Below, piece after piece: positions 4,789 to 35,872 of a stretch of DNA of 64,000 bases. The position numbers and the translations under genes are program-made. The stretch is from Thermoproteota archaeon (GTDB lineage: Archaea; Thermoproteota; Thermoprotei_A; Sulfolobales; Ignicoccaceae). The notes under the pieces were generated by a model. That model made no database searches. It was given only the letters and a program-made list of their open reading frames with translations, and was not told the DNA's origin. The stretch is from NCBI GenBank assembly GCA_013154085.1, contig JAADDE010000030.1, forward strand, positions 1-64,000, written 5' to 3'. How positions within the stretch are numbered: position 1 is the first letter of the stretch; each line of letters opens with the position of its first letter.

Positions 4789-5586
4789 CTACTCGATGCC
4801 TATTTCTTCCTCCTCAAGCTCCTTTGCGATCGTTTCTGCCAAGCGTTCTGCTATAATTTCGAGCAACCTCTCGCCGGCTTCCTTGGAAGCCCTCCTAGGG
4901 TCTCCCAAGTATCCCTCGGCAAACGTCATGCGAACCTCAGATAAGCTCTTCAGCAGTTTTCTGTCCTTCGGTTCTACCGGCTCCACTCCTCTTAGGTCTA
5001 CGCATTCCTCACAAATTGCCATGATCATGCTGGTCTCTATCTCGCACGCGTGCAAAGGCATCGTTCCGAACAGCTCCAAGAACACTTCCTTCGGGACCGC
5101 GTCCCACCACGAGAGGAATCCTACCTTGATGCCGGGAGAGAGCCTCAGTAAGGCCTCTTTGACGGCCACCTCGAGGGGCTCTTTGTTTCCGCCGTGTCCG
5201 TTGATTATTAAGATTCTGGAGATCCTCGGGGAAGGCAAGGTCGTGAGTATGTCCTCGACGTACTTGGACAGCGTGTGGGGATCTATGCTGACGGTGCCGT
5301 CCAAGTGTCGGAGGGACCAAGTGTAGCCGTACCACACCGGAGGTAGCAGGCCTACGTCGAACCCTCTTTGGGAGAGCTTGGACCCAACCCTTCTCGCCAC
5401 CTCCTGCGCTATTATAGTATCAGTCCCCAAGGGCAGGTGGTTGCCGTGACGCTCTATCGCCCCCGAAGGTAGTATCACGAGGTCCAGCTTTTCGATGCGG
5501 TTCGGAGGCGTGAGAGCCAAGTCGATTACCTTGCCCAACCTACCACCAAAAGGACGGGTGGCTACCGACAACAAAAAATTAGCCAC
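4789..5586 (-). CDS. Creatininase/ArfB-like amidohydrolase family protein
   Basis: LPSGAIERHGNHLPLGTDT, INGHGGNK, LHACEIETSMI: full creatininase-family motif set. Confidence 0.88.
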   Translation of the reverse strand: MANFLLSVATRPFGGRLGKVIDLALTPPNRIEKLDLVILPSGAIERHGNHLPLGTDTIIAQEVARRVGSKLSQRGFDVGLLPPVWYGYTWSLRHLDGTVSIDPHTLSKYVEDILTTLPSPRISRILIINGHGGNKEPLEVAVKEALLRLSPGIKVGFLSWWDAVPKEVFLELFGTMPLHACEIETSMIMAICEECVDLRGVEPVEPKDRKLLKSLSEVRMTFAEGYLGDPRRASKEAGERLLEIIAERLAETIAKELEEEEIGIE

Positions 5587-6673
5587 AAGCAGCTACGTCC
5601 TCCAGCGCCACTACCTTGCCGTCGCACAGTATCTTGAAGTGTATGTTTCCGCTTTCACCTATCTTCTTGAGCAATGTCCAGAACTCGGGCACGTTCTTGA
5701 ACGCAATCCCTTGTAACGTAGCGTTCATCCGAACTCTATCGCTGGCGACGAGAGTCAATTTCATCATGAACTCATCTGAAGGTAGCAAGTATTGAGCCAA
5801 GTCGGTGGCGTTCAGCGGTCTTAGGAGGACTTCCGTCCTTCTCTTGATCTCTTCGTACGTCGTCGTGTTGGTGTAGATCCCCGTTGCTGATACTTTTAGC
5901 GTGAAGAGCGTCATCAGCTCGTTATCGATCTTCTTCAGCTTTGCGGTGAGTAGCGCCTCACCGTCTATCTTGCGGACTACGTTGTCGGTTAAGTTGAATA
6001 AGTTCAGCATATTAGACGGTGCAAATCCTAGGCCGTTAACATAGTTAAGAATCTTCTCCTTTGTGCCCCTCACGGTGGCTTCAAACGTAACCTTGGACAC
6101 GGGCGGCATCTTGCGGCCGCTGACCTCATATTCCAGCTTGACCAGCTCCAGACCCATCTCTTCTATCTGTTTCTCTATTTTCGGAATAGTCGCTTTCAAC
6201 AAGTTCTGTACGGTCACCTTAGGTGCGGGGAGCTCTACGAAACCGCTCAGAGTCAAGTTGCCATAGCCCTCTTCTTTGTTTATGTACGATTTAACGACGA
6301 CATCCATATTCCTTACGAAGAACAGCGCAATCAGCGCAGACCCTCTAACACGGGCGCTGAGCTCCGCCACCTTGGGATCGTTCAGTATGCTGAAGACGAC
6401 CTTTGCTTGGCCCCTCTTTATGAGGGAGTTTTTCAGCAACAGCTCGCTCGAGGCTTTGAAAAGCTCCTTGACCCGCCCTTCTTCAGCCATCAGCTTGTCC
6501 TCGAGGGCGAGGGACCCGTTGGCGACGTTGACCCCCAGTCCGCTGAGCGGAACTTCGGTGCCGTTTACCACCACTTCCTTCAAGACTACTCTGTCTCCCT
6601 GCAGGATCAGCGTTACCAAGGCCGATGCCAGCGCTAGCGAAGACATCAGGAGCACGGCCACTGAGCTCTTCAT
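5579..6673 (-). CDS. Predicted secreted protein, unknown function
   Basis: Start MKSSVAVLLMSSLALASALVTLIL (signal-peptide-like); several N-x-T/S sequons; overlaps the creatininase gene by a few nt. Confidence 0.75.
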   Translation of the reverse strand: MKSSVAVLLMSSLALASALVTLILQGDRVVLKEVVVNGTEVPLSGLGVNVANGSLALEDKLMAEEGRVKELFKASSELLLKNSLIKRGQAKVVFSILNDPKVAELSARVRGSALIALFFVRNMDVVVKSYINKEEGYGNLTLSGFVELPAPKVTVQNLLKATIPKIEKQIEEMGLELVKLEYEVSGRKMPPVSKVTFEATVRGTKEKILNYVNGLGFAPSNMLNLFNLTDNVVRKIDGEALLTAKLKKIDNELMTLFTLKVSATGIYTNTTTYEEIKRRTEVLLRPLNATDLAQYLLPSDEFMMKLTLVASDRVRMNATLQGIAFKNVPEFWTLLKKIGESGNIHFKILCDGKVVALEDVAACG

Positions 6674-6741
6674 CGTTGGTACCCCGCACCACTCTGCCAA
6701 AGCTGAAAATAAACTAAGCCTTGTACACTCTCCGAGGGGTA

Positions 6742-28227: not shown

Positions 28228-29400
28228 GTGAGGAAGGTACCCCCAGAGCTGTGCGCGCGTTGTAAAGGCTACAAGCTCCTCTGTGGAGCTAGAAAGTGTC
28301 CAATACTGGAAAGGATCCGCATATTCTACTCGTGGGAGGCCAGAGAGCCGGCCGGACCTTCGCCCCCAACTGCCCTTGTGGGGGAAAGGGGATACCCAAA
28401 GGTTCCCGTGTCCTTAGGCATAGCTCCAGATAGCGACCCCAAGCTCCACGACTCTCCCAAAGAGTGGGTCGAGAGAGGACTCACGCTGGAAGAGGTTGCG
28501 AGGCTTAGGATGGAGGTTTTCAACCCCTTCAAGAGGGTCGACGTGAGGAGGCCCTCGGAGCTCCTTAAGGGCGACTTGCTCTGGGGCGCCGTGTCGGAAA
28601 GGCCCGTCTCAGCAGAAGCGAAGGTCTCGGGAAGGCCGCGCCCGCCGGAGCTGGACGGCTTGCTGGCTCCCATAGGTCCCTCTGCTAAGGCCGAGGAAAT
28701 TAAGGTTGTGGAAAATCCCAAGGTGGATCCGTTGCTGGAGAGGAGGTCTGAGGAGCGCGTTAAGGCCGAGGAGGCGGTGAAGGAGCTGTTCTCCGCCGGG
28801 CGCGACGTATACCTCCTTCAGAGAGCCTTCAGCTTGGGAATGTTTGGAAAGAGCAAGAGGCTCGTTCCGACGCGCTGGGCCATCACAGCGGTCGATACAA
28901 TAGTAGCAAAGGCGCTCAAAGCGGACCTGCTTCGCGCTAAGTGGACGCACTCCATAAGGGCGGGCTCCTATGAACACTTCTCTAACAGTTACAAGGTGCT
29001 ACTGTTGCCTGGACCGCCTTCAGTGGAAATGGTGGAAATCTGGGAGCCCGGCAGCTTGTGGACACCCAAGGAGGTAGTCATATACAATAGAGAAGGCCCC
29101 ACGGCGCGCTCCAAGGCAGAGGACTACGAGGACGGCGGCTTTCACGCGCTGAAGGTAGGGGTGCTTAAGGCTCTCAGTGAGGCCAACGTGAGCGCTACGG
29201 CCCTCGTTATAAGGAGGATCAAGCCGGGCTACTACATGCCTCTGGGCGTGTGGCAAGTTAGGGAAGGCGCGTATAAGGCCGCGCTCAGCGCTCTGAGAGG
29301 GCCTAAGTACAGCTTGAAAGAGGCACTAGAGGACATGCCGGACGCCGCGTGGGCCCGCTTCAGGACGCTCCGGCAGAGGCGCTTGGGCGATTACACATAG
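28228..29400 (+). CDS. NreA-like archaeal DNA repair protein
   Basis: N-terminal Cys-rich CARCKGYKLLCGARKCPIL; NPFKRVDVRRPSELLKGDLLWG; LVPTRWAITAVDTIV; C-terminal QRRLGDYT. Confidence 0.88.
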   Translation: MRKVPPELCARCKGYKLLCGARKCPILERIRIFYSWEAREPAGPSPPTALVGERGYPKVPVSLGIAPDSDPKLHDSPKEWVERGLTLEEVARLRMEVFNPFKRVDVRRPSELLKGDLLWGAVSERPVSAEAKVSGRPRPPELDGLLAPIGPSAKAEEIKVVENPKVDPLLERRSEERVKAEEAVKELFSAGRDVYLLQRAFSLGMFGKSKRLVPTRWAITAVDTIVAKALKADLLRAKWTHSIRAGSYEHFSNSYKVLLLPGPPSVEMVEIWEPGSLWTPKEVVIYNREGPTARSKAEDYEDGGFHALKVGVLKALSEANVSATALVIRRIKPGYYMPLGVWQVREGAYKAALSALRGPKYSLKEALEDMPDAAWARFRTLRQRRLGDYT

Positions 29401-29866
29401 CCGGCAGCGGCCGCCCCCACAGCTTTACTTCTTCCCCCTTTCTCGGTAAGTCCCGCGAGTTGACGAACATCTGGTACACGGCCTTCCACCCAATCTCTCC
29501 CTTCCGGGTGGTTATCTTGCAACCCTTGAGGCACCGGATCACCTCTCCCCTCTCTTTACACAGTATGTATGCCGCGTGCTTGACCAACATCTCACCTACA
29601 TAACCCACTTTCGCTTTGCCGTCCTCGTACCTTCTGCTGAGCCATGACCCGAAGCTCTGGAGGCCTCTCATCAGCGCATCTACGTCGATATCCTCAACGA
29701 ATTCGAGGGACGCGGAAGAATCCACGGAGAGGATATTGCTGTTTACGCACAGACTGAAGCACTTCCGCACCCGCAGACCGCGTCTGCTCCGACACGCTAT
29801 GATTAAGTATATCTTGCCGTTTTCTTTGAACAAGTAGGCACTGAAGTCCCTACAGCGGGCGCTCAA
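29360..29866 (-). CDS. Hypothetical protein
   Basis: ORF convergent with nreA (about 40-nt overlap). Confidence 0.55.
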   Translation of the reverse strand: MSARCRDFSAYLFKENGKIYLIIACRSRRGLRVRKCFSLCVNSNILSVDSSASLEFVEDIDVDALMRGLQSFGSWLSRRYEDGKAKVGYVGEMLVKHAAYILCKERGEVIRCLKGCKITTRKGEIGWKAVYQMFVNSRDLPRKGEEVKLWGRPLPAMCNRPSASAGAS

Positions 29867-29918
29867 TGTTATCGCGCTGTTGTGGCGAATGCTCCTTAAT
29901 TAGCCTCTCTCTAAAGCC

Positions 29919-30647
29919 TTGGGAGAGGCCTTGAGACTGCTCTATGAAGGGAAGACAAAAAAGGTCTACGATTACGGAGACGAGGTAGTGCTGGAGTTTA
30001 AGGACACCTTTACGGCATTCGACGGAAAGAAAGTAGAAGAGGTGCCGGGCAAGGGAGAAGTTAACGCTAAGTTCACCGAACTGCTGATGAAGTACCTAGA
30101 AAGCAAGGGCATAAGGACCCATTTCATTGCGAGGGAAGGAAACAAGGTAAGGGCAAGGAAGGCCGAACCCTTGCCTCTGGAATTCATAGTTAGAAACTAC
30201 GCCTACGGCAGCTTGCTTAAGAGGCTCCCCATCCTGCAGAAGGGGCAGAAGCTGGCAACGCCCGTATTCGAGGTGCACTACAAGAGCGACGAGTTGCACG
30301 ATCCCTTGCTGGCGAACGACGATCCCGTCGCGGCTGGGTTGCTGAACCCTGAGCAAGCGGAAGAGATTAGGGACACTACATTGAAGATAAATGAAGCGCT
30401 GAAAGAGCTGTTTAAGAAGGCCGGCTTTGACCTCATAGACTTTAAGGTAGAATATGGTATAACGGGGGATGGCCAAATAATCTTGATAGATGAGCTAAGT
30501 CCCGACGCCTTCAGAGCCCACAAGGGCGGAGAATCGTACGACAAAGACCTATTTAGGAAGGGCGCGTCCGGCGGAGAGACCCTCAAGAGGTACCTCGAAC
30601 TGCTGGGGGAGCTAGAAAGGGTGATACAAGATGAACTACAAGGTTGA
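29919..30647 (+). CDS. purC: SAICAR synthetase
   Basis: LLYEGKTKKVYDY, EFIVRNYAYGSLLKR, DFKVEYGI, LIDELSPDAFR; the second TTG at 29931, after GGGAGAGG, may be the true start. Confidence 0.96.
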   Translation: MGEALRLLYEGKTKKVYDYGDEVVLEFKDTFTAFDGKKVEEVPGKGEVNAKFTELLMKYLESKGIRTHFIAREGNKVRARKAEPLPLEFIVRNYAYGSLLKRLPILQKGQKLATPVFEVHYKSDELHDPLLANDDPVAAGLLNPEQAEEIRDTTLKINEALKELFKKAGFDLIDFKVEYGITGDGQIILIDELSPDAFRAHKGGESYDKDLFRKGASGGETLKRYLELLGELERVIQDELQG

Positions 30648-30915: not shown

Positions 30916-31546
30916 CGGCGATGAGGACGTGAAGCATGTCGTGAACTTGTACGGCATGCAAGGAGAGGTCGTGTGGTACAAGGAATTCCGCCAGACGGAT
31001 TGGGATGCCGTGGTCTTGGCCGGCGGCTTCAGCTACGCCGACAGACTCAGGGCTGGGGTCATCGCTTCGGTTACAAAGGCAATGGATGAAGTCGTGGAGG
31101 CCGCTGAGGAGGGCAAACCGGTCTTAGGGATATGCAACGGCTTTCAGATGCTTGTGGAGAGGGGGCTTATGGGCGACGTTGCACTCTTGCATAATGCCAA
31201 CAACCGTTTTGTATGCAAGTGGATAAAGGTGAAAGTCGTTAATACGAGGACGCCGTGGACGCTGGACTACGAGCAAGGAGAAGTGGTGGACATGCCGGTG
31301 GCCCACGCCGAGGGACGGTTCTTTTCCGAAAGGGAGCCGGACAGCGTCGTTTTTAAGTACATCGAAAATCCCAACGGAAGTCTGTGGGACGTCGCTGGAG
31401 TGCACGCGGCTGGGAGAAGGAACGTCGTAGGCTTGATGCCCCATCCCGAGAGAGCGGCCGAAGACGTTCTGGCCCCTCCCGGGAGGGGGCCGGGAGGAAG
31501 CAAGGTCTGGACGAGCCTAAGAAAAGCTCTCAAGTCTGGCTGGTAG
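30881..31546 (+). CDS. purQ: FGAM synthase subunit PurQ, apparent ATC start
   Basis: (ATC)KVAVLKFPGTNGDEDVKHVV..., GGFSYADRLRAGVIA, GICNGFQML, GLMPHPERA; GGAGGTGA Shine-Dalgarno at 30867-30874. Confidence 0.93.
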   Translation: MKVAVLKFPGTNGDEDVKHVVNLYGMQGEVVWYKEFRQTDWDAVVLAGGFSYADRLRAGVIASVTKAMDEVVEAAEEGKPVLGICNGFQMLVERGLMGDVALLHNANNRFVCKWIKVKVVNTRTPWTLDYEQGEVVDMPVAHAEGRFFSEREPDSVVFKYIENPNGSLWDVAGVHAAGRRNVVGLMPHPERAAEDVLAPPGRGPGGSKVWTSLRKALKSGW

Positions 31547-32141
31547 GGCATACGAGCTCTTTGATTTTTGCAAGCACCTTCTCCTTCTCTTCCAGCTCCT
31601 TCTGCAGTTCTTCCAATCTCTTCTTCAGCTTCTCGACCTCTTCCTTGTTGGCGGCCTGGGAGAGCTTCTCGCGCAACTCCTCGTTCTCCCTTTCAAGCTC
31701 CTTAATTCTGGCCTCCAGCTCCTTAATTTTCTCCTCGGGGATGATTATGCCCTTGATCGGTATCACCAGCTTCAGCTCTCCCCTCGCGAGGAGCTCATAC
31801 GTCTCCAGCACTAGCTTTCCAGCCTTGGTCTTTCCTTTAAGGTGGTTTCTTATGGTGCTCTCGCTCCTCCCCAGCTCCTCAGCTATTTGGGGTATCGTGT
31901 AGCCGGCCTTGTACCTCGCCAGCGCAGCCGCTGCCACGGCGAGGCTGTCGACCCACGTAGCCCTTTCATGGGGGTCGAGGATTAGCTGGATGACCTCGGG
32001 TCTGTATATTGTTCCTATTATGAGTGCCGTCTCCAGCTCCATTATTTCCTTTTTACTGGTCGGCCTGAGAGGGACGTGGCTCAAGTCTATCTCTATCGTA
32101 CCGTCCTCTCTAGTCCTTACGAAGCCGCCCACCTCACTCAA
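31530..32141 (-). CDS. HTH transcriptional-regulator-like protein with C-terminal coiled coil
   Basis: YTIPQIAEELGRSESTIRNHLKGKTKAG then long IKELEARIKELERENEELREKL coiled coil. Confidence 0.82.
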   Translation of the reverse strand: MSEVGGFVRTREDGTIEIDLSHVPLRPTSKKEIMELETALIIGTIYRPEVIQLILDPHERATWVDSLAVAAAALARYKAGYTIPQIAEELGRSESTIRNHLKGKTKAGKLVLETYELLARGELKLVIPIKGIIIPEEKIKELEARIKELERENEELREKLSQAANKEEVEKLKKRLEELQKELEEKEKVLAKIKELVCPTSQT

Positions 32142-32214
32142 GTTCCTCTACCGCTACTCCGAACCGATCCAACGTTTACTAACTTAGGGCACGCCAGAGT
32201 GTGGGGTCAACGAG

Positions 32215-35164
32215 ATTGCGGAGAACCGCTCCAATGTTATTGCTCTTATTGATTGCAGTAAATGCATGGAAACTGAGCTTGGTAATAGAGTATGACAACC
32301 CCGAAGCAGTACAGAACTTGCAGTTGCCAAGGCTCAAGGTTTCTGTAACTGGAACTTACGACCCGACCGCAATGACACTAAACAACGTGGATGTCAAAGT
32401 GGAAACGACAGCGAATACGGTAGCTCAGATGGTAAAGTCAAAGGTAGAGAGCTACCTCGGCATCTGTGAACTGACGAACAGAGCCCCGCTGGCAGAGCTC
32501 GCCTCCTGCGTGCTGAGCTCTATAAAAGATGTAATTGCTTTGACGAATCTCGAAGCTGGCACTCTGAAGGTCAGCAACGGTCTGGACTTGGCCGGGGTTG
32601 CCTTCGTCCAGATGAGCGGCGATGTCGTAGCTGCCGTAGCAGGCAAATCATTGAACGGTATAGAAAATTACGTTGCTAAGGCGTATTTGGAAGGCATAGA
32701 GGAAAGCTTGGAGCTGGTGCTATCTTCCGGAAACATTAAGTTGCGCGTGACCGGGGAGAGCTTTGTGACGCCGCAGAAGGCGTTCTACGTGCTCGTGAGG
32801 TGGCCCGAGGGAAGGGGCGTGATAGCTCTAACAGCCCCGCCGCTGGCTCCGCCGAACCTTCAAGGAACTAACCCGCTCACTGTTACCTTCGCTCGCGACA
32901 TCGTCAAATACTTCGTAGCTGTGAGCCCGGCACCGCTCCCGAGGACCGTTCTGCTGTACTTTCAGCAACCCGTTAGGAGTGTAGTCATACCTTTCGAAGG
33001 AGTCACGGTCGAGGTTGCCCCGCCGAGGCCTCGCCCGGTTGCGGCCAACTGCAACCTCTCTCTGGCCGTCGCCTCTAGGGGATACCACAACATCACCTTG
33101 ATCAGTGATATTTATAAAATAACCGTAAAGGCTAAGGGCTTCGAGTACGTTACGCTACCTTCGGTCTGCAACGGGACTGCCTTGTTAAAGGTGGACTCGT
33201 CCTACGCACTCCTAAACTTAACAAAGGTCGTGGGGAAGAAGATTGTGGCAATACCAAAGTCGCCAGTGCTGAGGCTGGTTGTCGTAAAGACCGGCGAACC
33301 GGCCGCTGTGGTCGTCGGAGGCGTTGAAGTGCCTTGTAGCAGCGACGCGTGCTACTTGTTGGTGCCCAGCGGGCAAACGGAAGTGAAGCTCGTCGGCTTG
33401 ATCAGCAAGACCAGCACGTCGGTCACCATTCCGTCCGCCGCTAGGGAGCTGAGCGTAAAGTTCCCCCCACCTCCGCCCACTACGGGCTGCATGGTCAAGT
33501 TCGTGTCTCCCAAACCGATAGACGTCACTGTTGCCACCGGAACCTCTGTGTTCACGATAAAGGTTGGCAGGTCTCCAAGCCCCGTAATACTGCCCTGCGG
33601 GAAGGAGGTCTACGTGAAGGTCGGCGGCTACGAAGCTAAGATAAACGTGACGTCCGGAGAGTGGATCTACCTTTGCCCTAGCCAGTACGCGGTCGGGGGC
33701 GAGAGCGTAAAGATAAACACCACGATGAAGCCTCCGCTGAGCATAAGCTGTGACGGCGGCATGAGCTGGGCGGTTGTAGGAAACAGCACGTTTACTATGG
33801 TTAAGCCGAGGTTCGCCTACGTCGAGCTGAAGATAGTTTCTGCCGACGGAGCTACGGTAGACGTGATACTGCCCGAGGGAGTTAAGGTAATTAGATTGAG
33901 ACCCACCAAAACACCACAGATCAAGAGGATCGCCGTTCCACAAGTCAGCCTCAACGCAGTAGAAAAGATAGTAATCAAAGGCCTTCCCGAGGCTCAGGTA
34001 ATCATAAGCAACGGCACGCACTATCTGGAGTATGTGGTTAGGAGGTCGGCCTACGTAGCGCTGCCTCAAGAATGGCTATCCCAAAAGCTGAGGATGCAGG
34101 TAAAGGCCCCCGGAGGCGTGCTGATCAACACTACCGTGCCTCCCCCGGCCGGAGAGGGTTCAGTAGCGCCCATCTACATAATGGCCAACAACTCGATGGT
34201 GGTCAACTACAAGAGCCTCAAATTGTTGGTATTCCGGGGCGACGCTTTGGCTCAAGCGCCGGTACAAATCAACGGAGAGAAGGTCTTGGTTAACGGCAGT
34301 GTAATATTGGTCGTCCCCGATGACGTAGTCAAGATAAGCGTCGCCGGACGGGAGTACCTAGTATATGCCAACGGTCAGTCGTTTAACATAACGCTACCGG
34401 CAGTGAGGCCCGTGCCGCTGACCCTCCCCGTGGAAGTATCAGTGTACTTCGAGGGGAAGCCGGCTAAGGCCACAGTGAAGTTTGTGTTCCCCAACTACAC
34501 AATAGCCTATACAATAAACGGCAACGCTACAGTACTGCTACCCTCCTTCGCCGCAAACGTCACCGCTAGGGCGACGTTCAGCGTCGGAGACGTTGCATGT
34601 ACGCTAACTCTGCCCTCATTGGAGACGCGCATAGGAGTGTCGAGGGTAGTTAGCCCAATAGTGGCACTGCTTAGCAAGAGGGGTACGTGCTACGCTTACA
34701 AGATCGTGGCCGTGGGAGGAGGACTATTCAAATCCCCAGCTACTGTGAAGGTATACTTCGATGGCCATGAACTTACGGTCAGGGGTAGCTTGATCGTCAT
34801 ATACGACAAACCGACGGCAGAGGTGATATTCAACAACAAGAGCTACACGGCCGTGGCCGGCGGCACGCTGTACTTGAAGAAGCCGGCCGAGCAAAAGCGC
34901 CCCGAGCAACGTCCACAGGAGGCGCCAAAGGCTACAACCAACATAGTAACTGCAATAAGGACCGTGGGCAAGTGGAACCCCGTGGGAGAGCTGCCCGGAA
35001 TGCTCAGCCTCGCTACCGGAATGATACTGGCTCTGGGGGTGCTCAACTCTGGAGTGACCGGCACCTCACCGGCCTACGCGGTTGCCGTGGTGCTGGCGTC
35101 TGTCAGCTTGATACTGGGCCTAGTAACCTTGGGGATGATACTGGCGCGCTACTTCTCAACCTAA
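32215..35164 (+). CDS. Large predicted surface protein, multi-beta-domain, C-terminal membrane anchor
   Basis: N-terminal signal MLLLLLIAVNAWKLSLV; repeated beta-sandwich-like units, many N-x-T/S sequons and Cys; charged Pro-rich linker KKPAEQKRPEQRPQEAPK; two C-terminal hydrophobic helices. Start may be GTG 32201 or TTG 32215. Confidence 0.8.
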
Positions 35165-35872
35165 GACCTTGAGGATGTGTTCAAAGGCCTCTTCTGAAGG
35201 AGATCTTTTATAACGCCTAGCGGCCTCCAAAAGCTCCGCCTTGTTCACTTTCAGCTTCTCTGCTATCCAGTACGCCGGCGGCGAGGGCTTTAGAAGTAGG
35301 CCGGACAGCAGGGACGTAACGTTAGACGGCTTCCTCATAGTGGAGGCACTCCCGAAGTCCAAGAAGACGACTCTGTCGCCGATCCGTACGTGCTTCCAAG
35401 GCCTTACAAGCTCTCCGTGGTCTATGCCCTTTTTGTCAAGCGCGCGTCCGGCCACCAGCACGGCCTTGATCGTCTCTCTCAGCTCCTTTGCCTCCATTTC
35501 TAAGACGCTCTCCACACCGGGATAGGGAATAAATTCCATTACTATGAAGTCTTGGTGGGAATAGTATACTTTAGGGGCTACGGGCCAAGCGAGCTTCTGT
35601 ATCCTCGCCTCCTTCCTCATGTCGCAAGGACAGTCGGTCCGCCGGACCTTTAACGCTACGACCTTCCCCCTCCACCTCGCAAGGAAGACGAGACCGCGGA
35701 AGCCGGCACCAAGAAGACGGAACTTGCCTATCTCTCTGCGACCGAAGTTGTAGACACCCTCCACTCCGGCCCTCTCAAGCTCGCCGTGGAAGTCGCATTG
35801 TCCGGGATAGCAGATCGGCGCTCTCCTCACCCCCACCAGCTCGGCTTCCCCCACACGAACCAAGCCAGCCAC
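35156..35872 (-). CDS. Atypical (COG2112-like) protein kinase-like protein
   Basis: LLGAGFRGLVFLARWRGKVVALKVRR, DHGELVRPWKHVRIGDRVVFLDFGSAS. Confidence 0.82.
   Translation of the reverse strand: MAGLVRVGEAELVGVRRAPICYPGQCDFHGELERAGVEGVYNFGRREIGKFRLLGAGFRGLVFLARWRGKVVALKVRRTDCPCDMRKEARIQKLAWPVAPKVYYSHQDFIVMEFIPYPGVESVLEMEAKELRETIKAVLVAGRALDKKGIDHGELVRPWKHVRIGDRVVFLDFGSASTMRKPSNVTSLLSGLLLKPSPPAYWIAEKLKVNKAELLEAARRYKRSPSEEAFEHILKVLG

Follow-up and report, generated by a model that had tools for sequence, protein, structure and literature searches.

A 64,000-nucleotide stretch of an Ignicoccaceae genome (GenBank assembly GCA_013154085.1, contig JAADDE010000030.1, positions 1 to 64,000; hereafter the window) carries at 32216..35164 (+) a gene whose product is supported as an exported, anchored multi-domain protein of beta-sandwich type outside known families. 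Export and membrane anchoring are highly probable, judging by a signal peptide and a C-terminal hydrophobic anchor that are conserved in three species. The protein family has been seen so far only in the genus Ignicoccus. We suggest that the protein could form a structural stalk or a tether, situated in the space between the two Ignicoccus membranes or on the cell surface, a reading to which we give slightly less than an even chance. A conserved, genus-restricted, anchored and rod-like protein would be a concrete candidate for the inter-membrane filament matrix or the outer surface of these cells, and I. hospitalis is amenable to culture and immunolabeling. If the protein is an ordinary ectodomain, it would be of little interest.

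Full-length syntenic orthologues are present in two further genomes. The first is a genome of 1,297,538 bp, presumably that of Ignicoccus hospitalis KIN4/I, with a protein of 972 amino acids, encoded at positions 749963-752881 of that genome, and about 43-44% identity. The second is the metagenome-assembled genome JALWJF01, labelled as a Desulfurococcales archaeon, with 32% identity. Gene order is kept across the genomes as purS-purQ, a regulator with a TIGR03879 domain, the main gene, a RIO-like gene and the CCA-adding enzyme, with the JALWJF01 contig stopping within the CCA gene. The Ignicoccus-like setting proposed in the initial annotation, which was made from the sequence of the window, thus finds its counterpart in a genome of the same genus with conserved gene order. 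A search of 229 genomes of the class returned only three full-length matches, along with a pair of fragments (E 0.005-0.008) of which one contains stops. The JALWJF01 record was the sole relative found among the genome contigs searched, and none was found among the viral contigs searched. One more Ignicoccus genome (G001) gave no match in a search covering everything but 688001-728000, where the syntenic locus would fall. Orthologues of NreA and purC (window genes 28228-30647, just left of the main locus) lie at the right flank of that interval, up to its edge. The missing match in G001 was therefore rejected as evidence of absence, and a fifth genome, 56% complete, has no bearing on presence or absence. 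The main protein is more divergent than most of its neighbors (about 43-44% vs roughly 57-89% identity to I. hospitalis), which fits an extracytoplasmic protein, since such proteins often evolve fast.

Both ends of the protein are conserved. Signal peptide and anchor were judged by hydropathy and by conservation in the three species. The signal peptide (32216..32266, +) has its hydrophobic maximum at about residue 11 in all three and ends in a conserved cleavage-like V-x-A before W, with V-N-A in the window protein and V-A-A and V-F-A in the other two. The C-terminal anchor (residues 923-987; 34967..35161, +) begins with W-N-P-V-x-E-L-P and continues into two hydrophobic helices, placed at 927-949 and 957-986 by the model and conserved in the three species. 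This hairpin is the best-conserved segment of the protein (62/48% identity), and a search of five genomes of the genus turned up no other copy. In the three species, all 12 cysteines are invariant despite an overall identity of 32-44%. The signal peptide, the two terminal hydrophobic helices and the cysteines reported by the initial annotation are thus all real and conserved features. The charged, proline-rich linker that it described before the helices is present (residues 901-922; 34901..34966, +) but not conserved, with 0% of its positions invariant.

The open reading frame (ORF) extends without interruption from 32201 to 35164 (+) and contains 987 codons counted from GTG 32201, from which residues are numbered here. 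As stated in the initial annotation, it is the largest in the window, with the runner-up encoding 917 amino acids. The start given there, 32215, misses the reading frame by one base. A likelier start, giving 982 amino acids, is TTG 32216, because it is aligned with the ATG of I. hospitalis, where the alignment of the two proteins begins, and because both codons have an equal 41-nt spacing from an upstream TTTACTAACTTAGG-like element. The element itself (TTTACTAACTTAGG, 32175..32188) occupies a promoter-like position and is kept in the divergent intergenic region of the three species, with 45 nt to the start codon in JALWJF01. Only one copy occurs in the window at two or fewer mismatches. As 1.3 copies are expected by chance, the conserved position and not the rarity of the element supports it.

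The ectodomain appears to consist of an N-terminal domain followed by a largely beta-stranded body. The N-terminal domain (residues 23-281; 32267..33043, +) is predicted to open with three strands, followed by a helix pair bearing C89 and C103 and then by further strands. Modeled alone, it reached a predicted local distance difference test score (pLDDT) of 62.7, and the model had no match in the PDB better than E 0.16. An all-beta region with 8 of the 12 invariant cysteines follows (residues 282-581; 33044..33943, +), and then two tandem modules, R1 (residues 582-738; 33944..34414, +) and R2 (residues 739-900, with C800 and C830; 34415..34900, +). The two modules are well supported as a real tandem duplication of a unit of about 158 amino acids. 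Their profile alignment with hhalign gave E 4.5e-18 and a score of 109.6, where 100 column permutations reached no more than 24.4, and they share 24-29% identity within each of the three species. A possible older duplication inside the all-beta region (313-420 and 456-567) is suggestive, with E 0.011 and one of 100 permutations as good. At the protein level, the link between residues 282-581 and the R1/R2 modules is at or near the permutation background. No DNA-level repeats of note were found in the main gene. Searching 398 genomes of the phylum with the repeat profile returned five further matches at E 0.002-0.008, vs about four expected by chance at this cut-off.

Structure prediction provides a general picture of the body. 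The model of the full-length protein is of low confidence (pLDDT 55.7; predicted template modeling score 0.30), pLDDT reaches about 70-85 in two stretches (roughly 360-560 and 680-830), and the ectodomain after the N-terminal domain is predicted as nearly all-beta. Foldseek searches with the full model, with the PDB among the targets, retrieved strings of beta-sandwiches at strong-looking E-values. TM-scores of these matches were mostly about 0.1 (range about 0.1-0.3), with root-mean-square deviations above 14 Å. The matches were therefore not taken as homology and indicate the general kind of fold only. The repeated beta-sandwich-like units of the initial annotation are thus borne out as a tandem duplication in an all-beta body, with the sandwich fold itself coming from a low-confidence model and the number of domains only tentatively assigned. 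The richness in Val, Thr, Asn and Pro that it noted is pronounced. Valine accounts for 14.3% of residues and the four together for 33.2%, the top value among 48 ORFs of the window (15-27% in the others).

N-glycosylation sequons are about threefold enriched in the main protein. The many N-x-S/T sites seen by the initial annotation amount to 16 vs 5.6 expected (z 5.0), and the remaining 47 ORFs of the window have together 41 vs 34.9 expected. Only the site at N506 is common to the three species, and nine are common with I. hospitalis. The enrichment makes the protein a candidate for N-glycosylation.

The protein matches no known family. Searches of Pfam, NCBIfam and PHROGs, judged by the curated cut-off of a profile where one exists, yielded no significant match (best Pfam E 0.28, no NCBIfam hit, best PHROG E 0.022), and no match was found among PDB sequences. 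The initial annotation had likewise recognized no family and regarded a match to an S-layer or protease family as decisive against its reading. Neither turned up, with no protease family match in Pfam, NCBIfam or PDB sequences and a lack of defining features of the S-layer stalk SlaB, as discussed below. By Foldseek, the general shape suggested for the main protein resembles that of bacterial and viral surface proteins built from rows of Ig-like or Big-type beta-sandwiches. Sequence matches to these are lacking and TM-scores do not exceed 0.3, and the likeness is one of kind and not of homology. Known envelope proteins of I. hospitalis, the outer-membrane pore protein Iho_1266 and the fiber protein Iho670, are of other size and architecture.

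A stalk or tether could be built from these parts as follows. After export, the signal peptide would be removed and the chain would fold outside the cytoplasm into the N-terminal domain and a string of small beta-sandwiches. Up to six disulfides among the 12 invariant cysteines might staple the sandwiches, and the protein is probably rod-like. The conserved C-terminal hairpin, with its two predicted helices inserted into a membrane, would keep the protein attached. About eight beta units of 75-80 residues might give the rod a reach of roughly 25-35 nm from the membrane, as a rough estimate. The rod, placed either within the inter-membrane matrix or at the outer face of the cell, would offer its N-terminal head to a partner on a second membrane, on some other molecule or on a different cell. 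We prefer the stalk or tether because Ignicoccus has no S-layer (PMC5744192, PMC5468417), and because its two membranes are linked by a matrix made of chain-like filaments (3-6 nm) of unexplained composition (PMC5468417). That account does not identify the principal protein of the matrix. A narrower proposal, that the protein described here is the chief component or the membrane-attached base of this matrix and represents a genus-only family of membrane-membrane tethers, is rather improbable.

Several points weigh against a stalk or tether. The weakness of the full-length model leaves the domain boundaries, the domain count and the rod shape tentative. One molecule would cover tens of nanometers only. 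The large conserved ectodomain would fit a membrane enzyme complex equally well. Finally, the five Ignicoccus genomes all lacked a match to PF02516 (STT3/AglB), a profile that detects 36 of 59 genomes in the order and is thus not fully sensitive. The Ignicoccus oligosaccharyltransferase would by this measure be either very divergent or missing. AglB is stated to be present in all sequenced archaea but Aeropyrum pernix and Methanopyrus kandleri, and the alignment in the same study includes a relative of the Agl24 locus from I. hospitalis (PMC8993221).

Instead of a structural stalk or tether, the protein might serve on the outer cellular membrane as an adhesin or receptor, making contact with other cells, minerals or Nanoarchaeum. 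We consider this unlikely, though a serious contender, as an exported, anchored, fast-evolving and sequon-rich protein with its N-terminal domain far from the anchor would be well suited to such a task. Against it, the gene keeps its genomic position in each of the three Ignicoccus lineages with a readable locus, and so is not peculiar to the host of Nanoarchaeum. Furthermore, the I. hospitalis proteins that PMC3149612 tabulates in its main text as enriched in purified N. equitans include none of 972 amino acids. Slightly less probable again is a membrane complex (enzyme, transporter or secretion) with the protein as its ectodomain subunit, in which the hairpin docks on a membrane partner and the beta domains act as scaffold or bind substrate. 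The hairpin is the best-conserved segment, and its invariant polar residues (W, N, P, E, N, S) suggest a specific partner. However, the main gene is surrounded by housekeeping genes (purine synthesis, CCA-adding enzyme, RNA phosphodiesterase), and no envelope complex is encoded among its neighbors.

A relic or replacement of the crenarchaeal S-layer stalk, similar to SlaB, is highly improbable. SlaB of Sulfolobales is described as having beta-sandwich domains and C-terminal membrane anchoring (PMC5744192), and the main protein shares with it export, anchoring at the C-terminus and a proposed stalk-like role, while its own body is predicted as all-beta by the low-confidence model. SlaB itself has a coiled coil and a single C-terminal helix, and carries SlaA. 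In contrast, the main protein ends in a hairpin of two helices, has an additional N-terminal domain that includes a helix pair, carries 12 invariant cysteines and comes from a host that lacks an S-layer. The model predicts no helix longer than five residues between 115 and 914, leaving no coiled coil before the anchor, and the linker spans only 22 residues. Membership among SlaB-type stalks was rejected based on the missing coiled coil, the second anchor helix and the lack of any Pfam, NCBIfam or PDB sequence match. Tetrabrachion of Staphylothermus marinus, an envelope glycoprotein of Desulfurococcales, is similar in having beta-rich parts away from the membrane, but stands on its own 70-nm stalk of four-helix coiled coil, of which none is predicted here. 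A lipid-transfer bridge joining two membranes is scarcely credible, as the top PDB fold match by E-value, the adaptor-binding domain of Vps13, has a TM-score of about 0.1 and corresponds to a beta-sandwich adaptor region outside the lipid groove.

Elsewhere in the window, a gene at 5579-6700 (-) encodes a predicted secreted protein of 373 amino acids. It lacks a Pfam match and has 7 sequons vs 2.3 expected. A comparison with the main gene revealed no detectable relation. Next to the main gene, the convergent gene at 35156..35872 (-) is a conserved neighbor that serves as context only. It is weakly kinase-like, with a RIO-domain match to PF01163 (E 0.0095) below the cut-off. On the other side, the regulator with the TIGR03879 domain (31530..32141, -) is divergently oriented and shares the intergenic region with the main gene. 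The regulator retains 86-89% identity across the three species and adjoins a far faster-evolving gene, with the 14-bp conserved element in between.
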